Origin: Sphingomonas sp. URHD0057 | Lineage (GTDB): Bacteria > Pseudomonadota > Alphaproteobacteria > Sphingomonadales > Sphingomonadaceae | Reading direction: 5' to 3' | Assembly: GCF_000620665.1 (NCBI RefSeq) | Contig: NZ_JIAU01000007.1 | Span: forward strand, 124,001 to 188,000 | Length of the DNA stretch: 64,000 nt | In this document: positions 7,282 through 63,526 of the stretch, piece after piece | Layout of the letters: the number at the start of each line of letters is the position of its first letter | How positions within the stretch are numbered: position 1 is the stretch's first letter | Notes under the pieces: generated by a model | The model's database searches: none | What the model was told of the DNA's origin: nothing | What the model saw: only the letters and a program-made list of their open reading frames with translations | Position numbers and translations under genes: made by a program

Positions 7282-7926
7282 GTGAAGACATTCTCTCCCT
7301 CCTTCTTCACGCGACGGCGAACGGCCGGCGCGGGTTCGGCGCCGGGCGATTCGTCGCTCGGCGTCGCCCAAGCCGACGATTTCCGGCGGCTGGTCCTCTC
7401 CCACCTCGACGGCGCCTACAATCTCGCCCGTTACCTGACGCGCGATGCCGAGCTCAGCGAGGATATCGTCCAGGACGCGGTGCTCCGCGCCTTCCGCAGC
7501 TTCGGCCAGTTCCGCGGCGGCTCGGCTCGCGCCTGGCTGTTCGCGATCGTGCGCAACTGCGCCCGCACGGCCCAGGCCAGCGCCAGCGGCCGAATGGCGC
7601 TGGTCGTTCCCGAAAGTCACCTCGGCGAGGAGGCGGTCGCGAAGCTGGGCCACGTGGCCGATGCCGGTCCGACGCCCGAAGAGACCGCGTCGCGGCAATC
7701 GGACGTGGATCGGGTGCGCAGCGCCATCGAGGCCATACCCGAGCCTTTCCGCGAGGCCGTGGTACTGCGCGACCTCGAAGATCTGTCCTATGCCGAAATC
7801 GCCCAGGTCAGCGGGGTGCCGGTGGGCACCGTCATGTCGCGCCTGTCGCGCGGGCGGACCATGCTGGCCAAGCAATTGCTACCATCCGGGGAGGTCCAGC
7901 CGGAACAATCGAGGAGCGTGAAATGA
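7282..7926 (+). CDS. ECF RNA polymerase sigma factor
   Basis: 214 aa from GTG 7282; no better in-frame start is seen. Region 2 is evident (NLARYLTRDAELSEDIVQDAVLRAFRSFGQFRGGSARAW), and region 4 has the helix-turn-helix LEDLSYAEIAQVSGVPVGTVMSRLSRGR. Length and lack of regions 1 and 3 mark an ECF (group IV) sigma factor. The TGA overlaps the ATG of the anti-sigma gene (ATGA at 7923), the classic sigma/anti-sigma coupling. It likely drives its own operon, including the cupredoxin and phosphoesterase, which is inference. Confidence 0.92.
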   Translation: MKTFSPSFFTRRRTAGAGSAPGDSSLGVAQADDFRRLVLSHLDGAYNLARYLTRDAELSEDIVQDAVLRAFRSFGQFRGGSARAWLFAIVRNCARTAQASASGRMALVVPESHLGEEAVAKLGHVADAGPTPEETASRQSDVDRVRSAIEAIPEPFREAVVLRDLEDLSYAEIAQVSGVPVGTVMSRLSRGRTMLAKQLLPSGEVQPEQSRSVK

Positions 7927-27809: not shown

Positions 27810-30800
27810 TCAATCCTCGTGCGGGACGCCGACCGTCGTGCCTTCGGAGTAATTGCCGCCCGCGGACTGATGGAACCAGAACGGCTTCGTCTTGTGGGTG
27901 CCGCCGGCGACGGCGTTCAAGTCGCCGTCGAGAAGCATGCCGTTGATCATCGTGTAACGGACGCTCGTGGAGTTGTGGATGTCGTCGAGCGGATTCTTGT
28001 CGAGCACTACGAGGTCGGCGAGCTTGCCGGCTTCGATCGAGCCGAGGTCGTGGTCGAGTCCGTGCGCGCGAGCCGGGTTGATCGTCGCCGTGCGCAGCGC
28101 TTCCATGTTGCTCATCCCGCCGAGCGCGAAGCCCCATATCTCCCAGTGGGCGCCAAGTCCTTCGCGCTGCCCGTGCGCACCGATTGAAACGGGGATGCCC
28201 AAGTCGCTGATCTGCTTGGTCTGGCGGGCGACGTTGAGAAGATTGTCCTCATCATCGGGGACGATCGTCGGGCGGCGCGCACGCGCGTCGAGCAGTCCCT
28301 GCGGCGCCCATTTCGCCTCGATCGGCTCGGCCCAGGCTTGGGTGTGCTGGTACCAATGATATTCGCCGAATGGGCCGCCGTAGGCGACGACCAGAGTCGG
28401 GGTCCAGGCCGTCTTCGAGCCGCGCCAGAACTGCAGCACGTCGTCGTAGATGTGGGGCACCGGGAGCGAGTGCTCGATCGTGGTGTGGCCGTCGGCGATC
28501 TCCGTCATGTTGTGCATGAACAGCGACCCGCCCTCGGGCACGACCTCGAGGCCGAGCTGGCGCGCGGCCTCGATGACCATCTGGCGTTGCTCGCGGCGGG
28601 GCTGGTTGTAGCTTTTCACCGACCACGCGCCGGACGCCTTGAGGCGGCGGAGGTTGGTCAAAGCGTCCTCCTCCGAGCCGACCTCGACCATGAAGGGAGT
28701 CTCGGCTCCGTAGAGGATGGTGCCGGTCGAGAAGACGCGAGGGCCGAGGATCTTGCCGGCCTTCTGCAGCTCGGACGAGGCGAACACTTCGTGCGTGTCG
28801 GCGGAAGGGTCGTGGACCGTCGTCACGCCGTAAGCGAGTGAATTGTAATAGACCCAGTCCTGATCGGGCACGACCTGGTCGGACGCGTGGGGCCCGTGCC
28901 AATGGGCGTCGATGAAGCCGGGCAGGATCGTTTTCCCAGCCGTATCGATGACCCGCGCTCCGGCCGGAACCGCGACGGTTGCCGCCGGCCCGACCGCGGA
29001 AATGCGGTTGCCGTCGATGAGGATGGTGCCGCCCTCGATCACCTGATCGCCGTTCATGGTGACGATGCGGGCGTTGGTCAGCGCCAGCATTCCGGTCGGG
29101 TGCGGCGCGGCCGAGACGAAGCCGAGGTGCGCGATCGGCGGCGGGGCGCCGGTCTTGGCGCCGTCGAACCCGGCGAGGTCGACGCGGCGCGCATAGAGGT
29201 CCGGCCCTTGCGTCCAATAGAGCGTGCTGCCGTCGCCCGACCAGTGGAGATAGTCGCCGGCGTCGCCGCTGACTTTGGTTTGCGGCAGCGCCTTGGCGTC
29301 GGCGGCGATGTCGATCGTGCGGCCGCTGCGCACGAACGGCATGACGAACGCCTGGTAGCGCTCGGTCCATCCGATGAACTGCTCGTTGGGCGACAGCGCG
29401 AACTCCGCGGCGTTGGTGCCCTTGAGGTGGGTGATCGGGTCGGCGCCGGTCACGTCGACGGACTTGAAAAGTTGGTTATTGTCGCTGTCGGCATCAACGA
29501 AGAAGACGCGCTCGCTGTCCTTGCCGAATTGCGGGAAGGTGCCGGACTTGGACAGGCGCTTGGGCTTGGCGCCCTTGTCGAGCGAGAGGACGTAGATGCC
29601 CGGATCGATTCCCCATAGCGGTGTCGCGAGGAAGCCGTCCGAGCCCTTGCGGTAGGCGATCATCCGCCCGTCGGGAGAGAAGGACGGCTCGCGGTAATAA
29701 CCCGGCTCCGGAGTGACGGTCCGGCCGGTTCCGCCGCCGGCGGTGACGACCTTGATCGCGCCGCCCTTGTCGTCGTCCCAGGTGACGTAGGCGATCTGGC
29801 GGCCGTCGCGCGACCAGACCGGATAGGCTTCGCGCTCGTCCGACTTGGTCAGCCGGCGCGGAGCCGCGTTGCCCGCAATGTCCTTGATCCACAGGTTGCC
29901 GAGCGCTTCGTAAACGACGCGCCGGCCGTCGGGGCTGGCGTGGGCGAAGCGGGTCATCTTCACATCGAAGCTGTCCTCGCCGATGCGCTTGTCGACGTGG
30001 AGCGCATCCTCGACGAAGCGCGATCCGGTGACATGGAAGGGAATGTCGGTGACGGCTTTGGTGGCGACGTCGATGCGGTGGATGTGGCCGCCGGCCCAGT
30101 AAACGATCGAGCGGCCGTCCGGAGTCCAGCTGATCCCCGGATAGACGTTATGGATCGCCCAGGTTTCCTGCATGTCGCGCTCGAGCCCGTCGGTCAGCGA
30201 GTCGATTCGTCCCGAGGCGATATCGAGCAGCATGAGGTTCGACTTACCGCGGATGCGGCGGACGAAGGCGAGCGTTTTGCCGTCGGGCGACGGTGTGGGG
30301 CGAACCGCGCCGCCGGGACCTGTAACGTAGGGGTCGATATCCCCCGTCTGCCGGTCGAGGCGCTGGATGACGTAGATCTGGCCGTTGGGGTCCTTGCTGT
30401 ACTGGAAGATCTCGCCCGGCGTCGCGTCGTCGGAGAAGTAGAGATAACGGCCGTCGGGCGAGAAGACCGGCTCGTTCGTGTCCTTCTGCTTGGTCCGCGC
30501 CTTGGTCATCTGGATGCCCGAGCCGACGCCGGTTCGGTGGTAGAGCCACATCTCGCCCGAGCCGAGGGAGCGCGCCGAGCTAAAGTGCTTGCGGGCGACG
30601 ATGTAATTGCCGTCCGGCGTCCAGTCGGGGCCGTTGAGCAGGCGGAAGCTTTCCTTGGTGATGGCGCGCGGAGCGGTGCCGTCGCGGTTCATCACCCAGA
30701 TGTTGTCGCCGCCGCCGCGGTCGGAGGTGAAGGCGATCTCGCGGCCGTTCGGCGAGTAGCGCGGCTGCATCTCCCACGCATTGCCGGTCGCCAGCGGGCG

Positions 30801-31139
30801 CGCTTCGCCGCCGGTGATCGGCATGACGTAAATGTCGCCCAACAGGTCGAACGCGATCTCCTGACCGTCGGGGGACACATCGAGGTTCATCCACGTCCCC
30901 GACGTCGTATCGATCGGCACGTCGTGGCCCGGGCCGTGGCGCGCGTTGACGTCCCACTTCTGCTCGTCCTTGCCGCCGGTCGGAGCGGACGCAATGTTGG
31001 CCGGCTTGGCCTGGGTCATCGGCTCGGCGGCGCCCGGCTGCGGGATCGGTGGCGCAACCGGCGGGGTCGGTGCCGGCTGGGCGGATGCGCCGACCGCAAG
31101 CAAAGCGGTGGCGGCGAGCAGAAGCGAACGATGAAGCAT
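27810..31139 (-). CDS. Exported TolB-like beta-propeller/amidohydrolase fusion protein
   Basis: 1109 aa from ATG 31139, preceded by GGGAGGGG; this start gives a signal peptide (MLHRSLLLAATALLAVGASA) after a rejected 48-codon upstream extension. Residues about 80-700 are Tricorn/TolB-like WD40 propeller repeats (VSPDGQEIAFDLLGDIYVMP, YSPNGREIAFTSDRGG, PVFSPDGRYLYFSDDA). Residues about 730-1090 are a metal-dependent amidohydrolase (GKTILPGFIDAHWHGPHAS, THEV, TTIEHSL, DLVVLDKNPLDDI). Such fusions are periplasmic or secreted hydrolases of unknown substrate, possibly peptides or imidazolones. Monocistronic. Confidence 0.88.
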   Translation of the reverse strand: MLHRSLLLAATALLAVGASAQPAPTPPVAPPIPQPGAAEPMTQAKPANIASAPTGGKDEQKWDVNARHGPGHDVPIDTTSGTWMNLDVSPDGQEIAFDLLGDIYVMPITGGEARPLATGNAWEMQPRYSPNGREIAFTSDRGGGDNIWVMNRDGTAPRAITKESFRLLNGPDWTPDGNYIVARKHFSSARSLGSGEMWLYHRTGVGSGIQMTKARTKQKDTNEPVFSPDGRYLYFSDDATPGEIFQYSKDPNGQIYVIQRLDRQTGDIDPYVTGPGGAVRPTPSPDGKTLAFVRRIRGKSNLMLLDIASGRIDSLTDGLERDMQETWAIHNVYPGISWTPDGRSIVYWAGGHIHRIDVATKAVTDIPFHVTGSRFVEDALHVDKRIGEDSFDVKMTRFAHASPDGRRVVYEALGNLWIKDIAGNAAPRRLTKSDEREAYPVWSRDGRQIAYVTWDDDKGGAIKVVTAGGGTGRTVTPEPGYYREPSFSPDGRMIAYRKGSDGFLATPLWGIDPGIYVLSLDKGAKPKRLSKSGTFPQFGKDSERVFFVDADSDNNQLFKSVDVTGADPITHLKGTNAAEFALSPNEQFIGWTERYQAFVMPFVRSGRTIDIAADAKALPQTKVSGDAGDYLHWSGDGSTLYWTQGPDLYARRVDLAGFDGAKTGAPPPIAHLGFVSAAPHPTGMLALTNARIVTMNGDQVIEGGTILIDGNRISAVGPAATVAVPAGARVIDTAGKTILPGFIDAHWHGPHASDQVVPDQDWVYYNSLAYGVTTVHDPSADTHEVFASSELQKAGKILGPRVFSTGTILYGAETPFMVEVGSEEDALTNLRRLKASGAWSVKSYNQPRREQRQMVIEAARQLGLEVVPEGGSLFMHNMTEIADGHTTIEHSLPVPHIYDDVLQFWRGSKTAWTPTLVVAYGGPFGEYHWYQHTQAWAEPIEAKWAPQGLLDARARRPTIVPDDEDNLLNVARQTKQISDLGIPVSIGAHGQREGLGAHWEIWGFALGGMSNMEALRTATINPARAHGLDHDLGSIEAGKLADLVVLDKNPLDDIHNSTSVRYTMINGMLLDGDLNAVAGGTHKTKPFWFHQSAGGNYSEGTTVGVPHED

Positions 31140-59076: not shown

Positions 59077-59152
59077 GGCCCCTTCGTCTAGCGGTCTAGG
59101 ACGTCGCCCTCTCACGGCGAAAACACGGGTTCGAGTCCCGTAGGGGTCACCA
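59077..59152 (+). tRNA. tRNA-Glu (anticodon CTC)
   Basis: GGCCCCTTCGTCTAGCGGTC opens the cloverleaf; the anticodon stem TCGCC/GGCGA encloses loop CTCTCAC with anticodon CTC; the T arm has GGGTTCGAGTCCC; the acceptor pairs GGCCCCT with AGGGGTC, then A and encoded CCA at 59150-59152. 76 nt. It marks the edge of the accessory region. Confidence 0.95.
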
Positions 59153-59527
59153 GCAATTTCAATAGCTTAACGGCAGATAAAAGACCCGTGCGAGCCGTTT
59201 CCCAAAAATTTCCCAAATAAGCGGCATTGGATTTTGTCGGACAAGCGGGGATGAAATCGCGCTTCTTCGCGCTGTGCGGCAGATTGCATGCCGGCCCCCG
59301 GCCGGCTCCCCGGTCTGCTGCTGGCCGCTGATCCGCCTTGACTGACCGGTCTGTGCTTGCTGTTGCCGCATTCTGCAGTAAGCTTTGAGGGCGCCGGAAC
59401 GAAGGCGCCGAGGCGTGAGAACCTCGACTTGGAGAGCCGCCGAACGCAATTTCCCACCCGGGCCGGGTGGCCGCCGCGCATGTCCAGGCCGCTTGCGGCT
59501 AAAGGTGGCGGCGCATGTTTCCAAGCG
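59153..59527. other. Non-coding junction between tRNA-Glu and the lasso remnant
   Basis: 375 bp without a credible gene. It starts with AGCAATTTCAATAGCTTAAC and contains CCCAAAAATTTCCCAAATAA, an AT-rich stretch like those found where integrases insert into tRNA 3' ends. Open frames crossing it show no protein-like sequence. Probably debris left after integration or deletion. Confidence 0.5.
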
Positions 59528-60117
59528 ATGGGCCGCGAATGGATGCGCGACGACACCGAAGACGAGCTTCGGCCGGATCCCGTTCTTGTTGCAGATGGCA
59601 TGCACTGCCAGCGCACGCACCAGGCACCGGTCCTGGGCGCGCGCAAAATACAAAGCCCTGCGCGCAGCTCCGGCAATGGCGCGAAGCAGGCGGTCCCGAT
59701 CGCGCGCGTTCGGGGGGTTGCCATTCATTCGGGCGCGCCCTGCCGATTCGAGCACCTCGAGAAAAGTCCGTGTGCGGAGTCGCCGGGCTGCGCGCGTTTC
59801 GGACAGGAGCGCCCGGAACAGGGGGAGCAGGCCGGGGCGGGGCGAGGGCCCGCTCAGCCAGTCGCAGGTCGGCGGCTCGATGACCGGGGGCGGCCGGATC
59901 GCCCCGGATGCGCAATCCTCGATGAGGACCCGCCGCGCAGTGAGCGCCTGAAGGCGCTCGGCGTCACCTTGTTCGATATTGCCGAGGCCAAGCGCAGGAA
60001 GGCCGCGTTGCCGGCTGCTGGAAGGCAGAAATAACGGTCCGCTTCAATGTCGAGAAAGACGGCTCGGCCGGCGCAATCGCACCAGTGAACATACTGTCGC
60101 AGCTGGAGCGGCATCAC
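59528..60117 (-). pseudogene. Lasso peptide B protein (RRE + transglutaminase-like protease), frameshifted and truncated
   Basis: From GTG 60117 or ATG 60114 the frame reads MPLQLRQYVHWCDCAGRAVF, LDIEADRYFCLPAAGNAAFLRL, the N-terminal RRE-like part of fused lasso B proteins. The matching continuation lies in another frame: GNIEQGDAERLQALTARRVL, FLEVLESAGRARMNG, then RDRDRLLRAIAGAARRALYF and DRCLVRALAVHAICNKNGIR followed by PKLVFGVVAHPFAAH, the B2 cysteine-protease domain with the catalytic Cys (DRC) and His (AAH). Immediately after AAH the homology ends; the expected CW-x-x segment and final Asp are gone. So there is one frameshift (near 60000) plus loss of the C-terminus. Read by eye; sequencing error is possible for the frameshift but not for the truncation. 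Confidence 0.75.
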
Positions 60118-60168: not shown

Positions 60169-60297
60169 TCACTCGTCGTTGAGGCCGGCGACGGGGATGA
60201 GGCCGCCCTTGCGGTCGTCCGAGCCGAACGGGGTGCCCTTGGTGTCGACGCTCGCGGCGCCGAGATCGATGAGCTCGTCATGATGTTCACGGTTCAT
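60169..60297 (-). CDS. Lasso peptide precursor 1 (A1)
   Basis: 42 aa from ATG 60297, with AAGGAG 8 bases upstream. Leader: MNREHHDELIDLGAASVDTK. The pattern LIDLG-x-AS-x-x-T-x-G matches leaders of Caulobacter/Sphingomonas lasso precursors (as in LIVLGKASAETRG of astexin), with Thr at the penultimate leader position. Core from residue 21: GTPFGSDDRK then GGLIPVAGLNDE (22 residues). Gly1 would close an isopeptide ring onto Asp7 or Asp8. It is 129 bp long, so easily missed. Followed by a hairpin and the broken B gene. Confidence 0.8.
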   Translation of the reverse strand: MNREHHDELIDLGAASVDTKGTPFGSDDRKGGLIPVAGLNDE

Positions 60298-60515
60298 GGT
60301 CGATTCTCCTTGTGTTGGCGTCATGGCCACGACCGGAGAAGGAATAGAGCGCTGCCTGAATTATTCGAAAACAATAGGGCGGGTGTTCGGCGATTGTTTG
60401 CCAAACAGTTTTGACCGTGGCGCAGGCGGCGCTGGCTGCAGCTATGCGGAGGAGGTGCCGCTCCAGGGCGCCCGCGCCGGCATCGGCGCTCGTGTCCTCA
60501 CGGCGACAGCCGAAT

Positions 60516-60545
60516 GCGAGCGCGTGCCTAGGAGCACGCGCTCGC
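60516..60545 (-). terminator. Perfect GC hairpin after lasso precursor 2
   Basis: GCGAGCGCGTGC (60516-60527) and GCACGCGCTCGC (60534-60545), a perfect 12-bp stem with 6-nt loop CTAGGA, 19 bp after the precursor stop. Same arrangement as behind precursor 1. Confidence 0.65.
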
Positions 60546-60564
60546 GGGTGGGCTTCAGTGCGGC

Positions 60565-60699
60565 TCAATCAAGCGTCAGGCCGCCCTCGTTCGTCATCAG
60601 TGAGGCCCGATGATCGTCGATCCCCCACGGGCCGCCCTTCGTCTCGGCGCTGGCGGTCCCAAGATCGATCAACTCATCATGTTCATGCTTACGGTTCAT
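60565..60699 (-). CDS. Lasso peptide precursor 2 (A2)
   Basis: 44 aa from ATG 60699, with GAGGAG upstream. Leader: MNRKHEHDELIDLGTASAET plus K, close to that of precursor 1. Core from residue 22: GGPWGIDDHR then ASLMTNEGGLTLD (23 residues). Both cores share G1-x-P3-aromatic4-G5-x-D7-D8, while the tails differ completely, the expected pattern of paralogous lasso precursors with a fixed ring and variable tail. Ring closure would be Gly1 to Asp7 or Asp8. It has its own upstream region and 3' hairpin. Confidence 0.8.
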   Translation of the reverse strand: MNRKHEHDELIDLGTASAETKGGPWGIDDHRASLMTNEGGLTLD

Positions 60700-60968
60700 G
60701 GCTTTTTCTCCTCTTCGTCACGTCGTGGCCATGACCGCGGCAGCTTAGGCCGGGCGCGCGGCGATACCGAGGATATAGTTCGAATATCTGGACATTATTG
60801 CTCGGCGCGATCCACTCGTCGGACCGCCGCGATGATTCGGCGATTGGCGCCGTAGCGCGGCGCAAACATGGTTTCCCCAAAACTAATCTTGACCCCGAGA
60901 CTCGCGCTGCATTAGCCGAGCGTCTGGGGACCTGGTCGAGCGCGTACAAAATCGGTCAAAAAAACGGA

Positions 60969-61409
60969 GTGTGCGCCATCACCGACAAAGATTCCGGGCC
61001 ATCGAAACCGTCCCCGCCGCATGGCGCCAAGAAGGACATTTCCGTTGAAGCTGACGAGTTCGGCCTCGAACGCGAATTGAATCAGCTCGCGCGCGACATT
61101 TTGCAGTCAAGGCGGCAGCGCAACGGCGAGTTCGGGAACCGCCTGTTTAGCGAACCCGCTTGGGACATGCTCCTGGCGCTTTATGTCCGCGAAAACGCGG
61201 GAGTGGCGGCCACCGGCGCCGATCTGATCTCGGCATCCGGCGCGGCGCGATCGACGGCGGGACGATGGATTTCGCATCTCGAAAAGGAGTCGCTCGTTCG
61301 GCGGCGGCGGCATCCCCGCGATTCCGCGACGGATTTCATCGAACTGACCGACCTCGGACGCGAATCGCTCGAGCGTTACCTCGCCACCATTCAGTCCGAG
61401 CTTCGATAA
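60969..61409 (+). CDS. MarR-like winged-helix protein, paralog 1
   Basis: 146 aa from GTG 60969 (CGGAGT just upstream); the frame is open back to 60798. An N-terminal charged region leads into ELNQLARDILQSRRQRNGEFGNRLFSEPAWDMLLALYVRENAGVAATGADLISASGAARSTAGRWISHLEKESLVRRRRHPRDSATDFIELTDLGRESLERYL. The helix-turn-helix and wing (HPRDSATDFIELTD) fit the MarR fold, but the FxxPAWDMLLALY lead is shared with three other genes within 3.5 kb. DNA target unknown. It is divergent from lasso precursor 2. Confidence 0.7.
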   Translation: MCAITDKDSGPSKPSPPHGAKKDISVEADEFGLERELNQLARDILQSRRQRNGEFGNRLFSEPAWDMLLALYVRENAGVAATGADLISASGAARSTAGRWISHLEKESLVRRRRHPRDSATDFIELTDLGRESLERYLATIQSELR

Positions 61410-61653: not shown

Positions 61654-62310
61654 CGCTTCGGGGCGCCTGTGTAACGAAAAATCTTCGACCGTCCACCTCG
61701 TTTGCCCGGGCGTGCCGGCGAGGCACAGCCCGCCACGGAGGAATGTTTCCGGGCGCTGAACGCTCTATCTTCGCGGGTCCGTCGCGTCGTGACTGGACAT
61801 TCGTTCGGGCGAAGGATGCAGGAGAAGTGCCAACACTTCACACCGCCGCCCTCCTTTCGATTTGGAAGGCACCGCCCAATTCGCCGAGGCATGGCCTGCG
61901 CCACGGCATGGGGTCATGACGCGACGAGCGGTTGTTCAGCGCTTGTTCGCTGTTCAACCAAAATGATCCGGAACGGCTGAGATTGGCCCGCGCCGACCTT
62001 GCAATTGAAGGCGCAATTCTGCAGCAAAAGCAAGTCAGCTGCCGAATCGGTCGGGGACGGGTGCTGCTCGGTGCACCCGTCTCCCGCAGCGAAGCCAGGC
62101 ATTTGGGCGGTGACAACATCCCCGCGGGCGCGTACACCGCTCCACGCCGAATCTTGAACATCGCCAGGTGGCGGAACGATTCGTGCGTCTTCCAAAGATC
62201 AGTTCGAGCCCCGCCGAACCTGGGCGCGCGCCTTGACCTCCGGAGCAGCCAAGCGCGGCCGAGCCGAGGCGTGGATTTCAGCCTTGCTGACCGTTTCGGC
62301 GCGCGAAGCG
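61654..62310. other. Region without a supported gene
   Basis: About 650 bp with lower coding quality. Open frames such as 61838-62161 and 61932-62480 have no protein-like composition or ribosome-binding sites. Near 62190, GTTCGAGCCCCGCCGAACC resembles a tRNA T-arm but has no surrounding cloverleaf. Could hold regulatory sequence for the adjacent winged-helix genes. Confidence 0.5.
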
Positions 62311-62736
62311 ATGGCTCTCGTCGATTCGCCGTCGCTTCGGGCCGGAGGGCCGGCTCAGGCGAACCAGGCTTGCGGAGGGACGGACGCGGCAGAAACGCAC
62401 CCGTTCACGAATTGCGCCGCCAGGGAATTGTGGATTCGGGCGCAGCGGGCGCGATTCTTCGATCCCGCTCTCTTTGGTGACGCCGCCTGGAACATCCTAC
62501 TCGCTTTATACGTGCTCGGAACCCATCGATCGCGTGTTTCGAGCACACGTTTCACGAAGATCTTCGGCATTCCACGATCGACCGCGTTGAGATGGCTGAA
62601 CGATCTTCAGGATCGCGGCCTGGTCGCGCGGGCGGCATCGCCGGCCGGCTCAAGCATGCATTTTGTCAGGCTCACCGGCAAGGCGCGCCGCTCCCTCGAC
62701 AGCTATTTCGCACACGTCCGCGCCCCGGGGTCCTGA
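62311..62736 (+). CDS. MarR-like winged-helix protein, paralog 2
   Basis: 141 aa if started at ATG 62311; a TTG at 62233 would add 26 residues and neither has a strong ribosome-binding site. Core: FFDPALFGDAAWNILLALYVLGTHRSRVSSTRFTKIFGIPRSTALRWLNDLQDRGLVARAASPAGSSMHFVRLTGKARRSLDSYFAHV. The same architecture as paralogs 1, 3 and 4 (xLFxDxAWxxLLALY...STALRW...L). It is convergent with paralog 3, 18 bases apart. Confidence 0.7.
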   Translation: MALVDSPSLRAGGPAQANQACGGTDAAETHPFTNCAARELWIRAQRARFFDPALFGDAAWNILLALYVLGTHRSRVSSTRFTKIFGIPRSTALRWLNDLQDRGLVARAASPAGSSMHFVRLTGKARRSLDSYFAHVRAPGS

Positions 62737-62754: not shown

Positions 62755-63222
62755 TCAGATTGCGCCCCCGGATACCGAAATCGCGTTGAAATAGGATTCC
62801 ATCTTCGCGCTCGCGGTCGGCGACAGCGCGACCCAGAACCGTCTGCCGTCCAGCGGGTCGCCCTCACGCGTCAGAAAGCCCAAATGCTCGAGCTTGTCGA
62901 TCCAGCGCAACGCGGTCGTGGCCGGGACCGCCGATGCAATGCACAAGGCCGATGTGGAAACCGAATGCTGCCGGAGCTCGGCACGGTACAGCGCGAGAAG
63001 GATATCCCACGCGGGGTCGGCGAACAGCTCCCGGCTGATGATCTCTTCGCGCGCCCGGCGGGCCTCGATGATCCGCTGGACGTTTGGCCGGGCGTGCGCC
63101 GACCTGACCCACATTGCGCCGCGCTCGGCCTCCAGTTTGCTTTTCAGGGCCCGCAGCTCCTCTTGGAGCCGGGCGATCTCCTGTTCCGTCTTTTCAGGCC
63201 TTTGGACTGCCGCGTAATTCAT
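62755..63222 (-). CDS. MarR-like winged-helix protein with coiled coil, paralog 3
   Basis: 155 aa from ATG 63222 (AAGGAGCAACCTCG upstream). It has an N-terminal coiled coil (EKTEQEIARLQEELRALKSKLEAERGAMWVR), then IISRELFADPAWDILLALYRAELRQHSVSTSALCIASAVPATTALRWIDKLEHLGFLTREGDPLDGRRFWVALSPTASAKMESYFNAI. The wing GDPLDGRRFWVAL is the clearest MarR-like element. Closest by eye to paralog 4. It is convergent with paralog 2, and divergent from paralog 4. Confidence 0.8.
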   Translation of the reverse strand: MNYAAVQRPEKTEQEIARLQEELRALKSKLEAERGAMWVRSAHARPNVQRIIEARRAREEIISRELFADPAWDILLALYRAELRQHSVSTSALCIASAVPATTALRWIDKLEHLGFLTREGDPLDGRRFWVALSPTASAKMESYFNAISVSGGAI

Positions 63223-63526
63223 CGAGGTTGCTCCTTCGCGTTTGCCCCGACCTTGCATCTATTTATCGTCCAAACCATCAACGATCTATCCAGTCTGGAT
63301 GAAGTTGGCCGCGACAAGCGCGGGTCCGCAGCGGTTTGACGACCAGGAGCGCGGCCATGTCGAAGCGGGGCCTGGTCCCGACGAGCCCGCCTGCGCGAAG
63401 GCCCACCCGTGGAGGCCGCCGATCCCCATCCGGAATGGACGCAATTCGATCCGGGATGAAAGGAATCGTTAACCATTTCGGCCGACATTGCACCTGCTCG
63501 GCTAACGCTTTGCGGGACATTGCAAA
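63223..63526. other. Divergent promoter region of paralogs 3 and 4
   Basis: 304 bp between divergent winged-helix genes. Both small frames crossing it look like shadows. ATTCGATCCGGGATGAAAGG and CGTTAACCATTTCGGC stretches are AT-richer than average and may hold promoters; no clear operator or known motif is seen. Confidence 0.4.

Follow-up and report, generated by a model that had tools for sequence, protein, structure and literature searches.

Two short minus-strand genes in the window (the whole stretch of 64,000 nucleotides of Sphingomonas sp. URHD0057 that was analysed) encode lasso peptide precursors. In all likelihood they are what is left of an A-A-B-C cluster after one deletion, orphans whose products would not be expected to mature. 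The scar holds a truncated copy of a conserved RNA-like element. From sequence comparison we consider it likely that this element belongs to a so far undescribed group of pseudoknotted leader RNAs that many members of the bacterial family share and that occurs more widely in the Alphaproteobacteria. Such RNAs would lie upstream of the ECF sigma gene that heads lasso-peptide receptor/isopeptidase operons, as well as of other genes, and may switch them, either in the manner of a riboswitch or via a bound protein. The element is the more novel result, and the lasso genes are further members of a known family. The latter add two lasso core sequences, and a cluster loss in which precursors outlast their machinery calls for care in genome mining that starts from precursors. 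Should the element prove to be a regulatory RNA, bacterial switching of lasso-peptide uptake and breakdown would become directly testable, and a widespread structured RNA would be added that Rfam 15 lacks.

Two precursor genes of the benenodin/subterisin family

A preliminary description of this DNA proposed two short lasso precursor genes with ribosome-binding sites, and these are present as A1 (60565..60699, minus strand; 44 aa) and A2 (60169..60297, minus strand; 42 aa). GAGGAG precedes A1 and AAGGAG precedes A2; both ribosome-binding sites and both starts are intact. The peptides are 57% identical to each other and match two curated families, NF033522 lasso_benenodin of NCBIfam (A1, E 2.3e-12, 46.6 bits; A2, E 2.4e-13, 49.7 bits; curated cut-off 33 bits) and PF24178 Subterisin of Pfam (A1, E 5.8e-12, 45.8 bits; A2, E 9.9e-15, 54.7 bits; curated cut-off 27 bits). 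For A1 the match is limited to residues 1–30 (NF033522) or 1–29 (PF24178), that is, to the leader and the start of the core, and for A2 it spans almost the full length. At the level of sequence these matches confirm A1 and A2 as genuine benenodin/subterisin-family precursor genes, as had been proposed, and contradict the idea that their leaders might resemble no lasso precursor.

When nine precursors of this genome and its relatives are aligned, Thr(-2), Gly1 and Asp8 (columns T19, G21 and D28) are invariant, in agreement with the earlier reading of Thr as the penultimate leader residue and Gly as core residue 1. Both A1 and A2 have Thr at -2, Gly at core position 1 and an acidic ring residue within core positions 7–9. 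From the invariant columns we predict a Gly1–Asp8 ring in each peptide, with the A1 leader ending in TK and cores of GGPWGIDDHRASLMTNEGGLTLD for A1 and GTPFGSDDRKGGLIPVAGLNDE for A2. The leader is conserved and the core is diverging between the two genes, which bears out the similar leaders and divergent C-termini first described. The 21 leader codons differ by 7 synonymous and 5 nonsynonymous changes (0.55 versus 0.10 per site) and the ten codons of core residues 2–11 by 4 synonymous and 10 nonsynonymous changes (0.56 versus 0.44 per site), small counts that reflect the time since duplication and not recent selection.

Within the family, PF24178 has members in 67 of 397 genomes (above the cut-off in 65), and within the genus in 3 of 71; A1 and A2 are the only two PF24178 places in their own genome. 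The genes are thus not new in kind, contrary to what the preliminary description had implied. The two family matches rule out chance ORFs, and the broader proposal of chance or unrelated small proteins has a probability close to nil: it could draw on the rarity of the family within the genus, but two paralogues exceed two curated cut-offs, B lies directly downstream, the Thr(-2), Gly1 and Asp8 positions are invariant and the leader is under constraint. A family common around the genus and rare within it fits an accessory island gene rather than a false call.

The window genes share with the benenodin (NF033522) and Subterisin (PF24178) families the leader pattern LIDLGxAS..T, Gly1, Asp8 and a B gene directly downstream, but differ in that C is absent, B is broken and the A1 and A2 cores are unlike each other. 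The sphingocin operon spgABC of Sphingomonas sp. BPH (PMC11006600) has a closely similar leader, DELIDLGSVTEETKG, and the order A-B-C. It differs in having a single precursor and in keeping B and C; in the window there are two precursors, and C is gone.

A palindrome, GTCRTGGCCAYGAC, lies just 5′ of the ribosome-binding site of both precursor genes (window 60320-60333 and 60722-60735), and the same palindrome or a near copy also precedes the precursors of two relatives, G054 and G362. Among 29 unique upstream regions (of 35), 5′-UTR hairpins have a mean energy z-score of -0.98, and 12 upstream regions carry an unusual inverted repeat where 5.8 would be expected; hairpins in the 5′-UTR of precursor genes are suggestive only.

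A broken B gene and no matching C gene

In intact lasso systems the leader is removed by B and the lactam is closed by C (PMC10368454), and some threaded products, benenodin-1 among them, are linearised by isopeptidases (PMC9266682). Beside A1 and A2, B is present in two frames and cut short, as the preliminary description of a broken B gene suggested. An N-terminal, leader-binding piece (59983..60114, minus strand, frame -2) matches the B protein of G054 by tblastn (61% over 44 residues, E 4.5e-13). The C-terminal peptidase piece lies in another frame (59528..59953, minus strand; tblastn with B of G054 and G362) and matches PF13471 (E 4.0e-12) over profile positions 5–92 of 117. The Cys region lies within this piece, whose homology breaks off at an Ala-His (59528; profile position 92). 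An intact leader peptidase is therefore not found beside the precursors.

Nor does a cyclase stand beside A or B. Three C proteins of relatives have no tblastn match in the window at E ≤ 0.01, which rules out a hidden C gene downstream of B. At the same threshold there is no window match to the receptor (two queries) or FecR (one query) of relatives; the isopeptidase and sigma queries each find a single weak, far-off place, 30552-30884 (E 1.4e-5) for the former and 7621-7851 (E 0.009) for the latter. Genome-wide, the C protein of G054 is unmatched at E ≤ 1e-5, the sole such case among 69 precursor-carrying genomes. The only strong Asn_synthase place in this genome that is not housekeeping-like belongs to a separate locus on contig C3, discussed below. 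With B broken, and with no matching C gene found beside it or elsewhere in the genome, the threaded product implied by the preliminary description is unlikely.

An IS110 insertion in B was also considered and is unsupported: there is one sub-threshold Pfam match (15.8 bits, cut-off 21.3), and the DNA at that point matches the sigma-upstream element described below.

Intact clusters in relatives and the probable deletion joint

Three related loci show the intact gene order. Two precursors are followed by B and C in the congeners G041 (L018) and G054 (L019), and one precursor by B and C in G362 (L050). In G041, Pfam matches after C, and facing it, indicate a prolyl-oligopeptidase-type protein (presumed to be the isopeptidase), a TonB receptor, FecR and an ECF-type sigma factor. 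In G054 isopeptidase-like and receptor-like ORFs were read by eye, and FecR and sigma were not identified within the stretch examined. More widely, a PF13471 protein lies within 2 kb of 91 of 94 precursor places and C within 4.5 kb downstream at 89 of them. The five places without C are the two in the window, one in G081:C11 that lies 63 bases from a contig end, one in G397 that is a partial match and one in G122 that is a match of 21 positions. G397 has a weak C match on another contig and no PF13471 match. Among the 94 places, the two in the window are the only ones that have B but lack C.

The joint lies at approximately 59519..59534 (no strand assigned), where homology to B ends (59528) and the element from upstream of the sigma gene begins (DNA match 59400-59530; RNA model match 59408-59534). 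Window positions 59400-59530 match G041:C136:58046-58174 (86%, E 1.6e-34), in the A-to-B orientation. The matched DNA of G041 lies immediately past the sigma start, ∼8 kb further along than the corresponding point in B; a phage-type integrase and a tRNA-Ser come after it. The end of B homology and the adjoining match to sigma-upstream DNA make a single deletion the simplest reading. We infer that one event, running from the end of B to the region upstream of the sigma gene (∼8 kb by the spacing in G041), probably removed C, the isopeptidase, the receptor, FecR and sigma. The joint is placed mainly by comparison with G041, a fragmented congener genome 88% complete with 7% contamination, and the same element is found at the sigma end of other lasso loci.

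Loss or misjoining of C and the remaining genes during assembly or binning would also leave them missing, and the joint does abut a GC-rich structured element. This explanation is very improbable, given that the genome is 99.85% complete in 11 contigs with 0.03% contamination, that the G054 C protein is unmatched across all of it, and that B has a second, separate lesion in its frame change.

The ancestral cluster would then have been A-A-B-C, facing a block of sigma, FecR, TonB receptor and isopeptidase. In that intact state, as is known for relatives, B would cleave behind Thr(-2)-Lys(-1) to free the core, C would link Gly1 with Asp8 in a ring threaded by the tail, and the product would be dealt with by the isopeptidase and receptor. 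Here, with a frame change in B besides the deletion, the precursors would be at most translated and are not expected to be matured. Since the first two maturation steps would lack their enzymes, an orphan precursor pair without product is the most likely state, and A1 and A2 are probably such orphans.

A second B1/B2/synthetase locus

Two observations run counter to the orphan reading. The conservation of the leader, together with the intact ribosome-binding sites and starts, could mean that A1 and A2 are still used, and a second B1/B2/synthetase locus is present on contig C3 of the same genome (L004:7757-10645). If this locus matured A1 and A2 in trans, a lasso peptide would still be made. 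We regard such rescue as improbable. The locus does encode a PqqD-like B1, a PF13471 B2 and an Asn_synthase protein, and both A genes look intact, but its B1 and B2 are separate, and a nucleotidyltransferase and a P-loop protein stand beside them. The tail of its candidate precursor, read by eye, contains WVKPQV, which resembles the YxxPxL leader motif of the bsf type (PMC10368454), and A1 and A2 contain no such motif. Moreover, the G054 C protein does not match the synthetase at E ≤ 1e-5 in the genome-wide search; a local tblastn gives a weak match (E 5e-5).

The contig-C3 region (L004:6624-11550; PqqD-like B1, PF13471 B2, Asn_synthase, nucleotidyltransferase, P-loop protein) is of interest in its own right. 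It is the only locus here that resembles the phosphorylated-type clusters with separate B1 and B2, such as bsf of Bradymonas (PMC10368454); the likeness extends to a separate PqqD-like B1, B2, synthetase and nucleotidyltransferase. Unlike the bsf type, A1 and A2 lack the YxxPxL leader and have Thr at -2. The contig-C3 P-loop protein, which has sub-threshold matches only, is taken as the kinase of such clusters by its position. The tail of the candidate precursor ends in GPNNTGGQGGKS, by eye, and its core has neither Asp nor Glu, so it may not form a lasso ring.

A structured RNA-like element upstream of the sigma gene

The truncated copy in the window (59408..59534, plus strand) scores 82.4 bits with our covariance model R1, and the G041 copy scores 127.4 bits. 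The window copy has lost its 3′ end: where two helices should have their 3′ strands, it has B sequence instead. Intact copies are ∼130 nt long (e.g. L069:1029-1166 and L070:8335-8466, both on the minus strand). With the window DNA of the element as query, 19 places were found in 16 of 20 chosen genomes. Sixteen of these form the alignment; the truncated window copy (L071) and two places with one end missing (L080 and L081) were left out.

Across the 16 sequences, 97.6% of cells are paired in four helices that together comprise 24 pairs and include two that cross, and sliding the partner by one to three columns reduces pairing to 29.8–50.6%. In these helices 53 cells are changed on both sides against a shuffled mean of 11.6, and none of 500 shuffles reaches 53. 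A further helix, misaligned by MAFFT, has 6.9 base pairs within sequences versus 3.5 between them (none of 2000 permutations reaches the observed mean) and at least 6 pairs in 13 of the 16 sequences; since the element sequences are related, neither the shuffles nor the permutations are to be read as probabilities. When the element is read along the sigma-gene strand, the ratio of G-U to A-C pairs is 15 to 1, an excess that indicates this strand.

R1 was built with three nested helices only, and its calibration was short. The crossing helix, withheld from the model, varies little but is 99.5% paired across 25 matches, one of which is weak, in 24 loci that had no part in the training. Among nine distant copies from the class, its variable pair reads A-U four times, G-C three times and U-A twice (by eye), which is independent covariation. 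The element thus shows a covarying structure on the strand of the downstream gene, as sought in a cis-regulatory leader RNA.

Within the family, R1 finds the element at E ≤ 1e-3 in 160 of 397 genomes (60 of 96 genera); class-wide, at E ≤ 1e-4, 20 of 385 genomes have a match, this one among them. Both searches scored few candidates per genome under strict filters. In 27 of the 30 best-match loci, tested in batches, we looked downstream for a same-strand sigma-70-family ORF; 20 have one (4/10, 10/10 and 6/7). By a mechanical choice of start, the ORF begins 14–105 nt after the element in 18 loci, 132 nt after it in L111 and ∼104 nt after it in L096. Seven tested loci have no downstream sigma ORF, so sigma and lasso genes are not its only context. 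At 28 of 82 precursor places an element is found 8.9–12.1 kb away, as far off as the sigma end; they account for 28 of 150 elements entered from among the matches listed. Rfam 15 gives no match to the element at E ≤ 1, either for the window copy or for ten loci with other copies, and apart from tRNA its rows at those loci fall below gathering scores. We found no published description in searches of one open-access library or in passages of PMC11109978, and one may exist elsewhere.

The accessory region and its flanks

A tRNA-Glu gene (anticodon ctc; 59077..59152, plus strand; ARAGORN, Rfam tRNA 61.2 bits) bounds the accessory region. We compared 13 congener loci (L053-L065), drawn from 68 genomes that have the flanking protein, and found no clean empty site among them. 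The tail of the tRNA adjoins the flanking protein gene in five (L053, L057, L061, L062 and L064), and the tail lies 2–3.5 kb further on in the other eight. The DNA beyond the tRNA varies among the 13, as at an integration hotspot. Besides generic receptor-, peptidase- and dehydrogenase-type matches (L053, L054, L056 and L058), the only accessory proteins shared at these loci are winged-helix proteins, in G037 (L064).

In G041 the genes 5′ of the precursors encode an autoinducer synthase, a PhyH dioxygenase and a GntR regulator (Pfam). All three survive on the contig of the window (L003:7504-9651, 68–82% identity to G041); ∼10 kb of other DNA, with genes for MarR-like proteins and a CS1-type pilus protein among its contents, lies between them and the precursors. 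An autoinducer synthase and a PhyH dioxygenase are near benenodin-type lasso genes in three of six related loci read (L018:6557-8710 in G041, L049:11028-12563 in G398 and L051:2752-4884 in G077), identified by Pfam in G041 and by eye in the other loci, this genome's included. A literature search on a link between lasso peptides and LuxI, and on orphan lasso precursors, returned nothing specific. MarR-like winged-helix paralogues stand in a row near the precursors (window 60798-61409, plus; 62233-62736, plus; 62755-63258, minus; and L003:27-512, plus), and a relative of one of them lies near the tRNA-Glu of congener G037 (L064).
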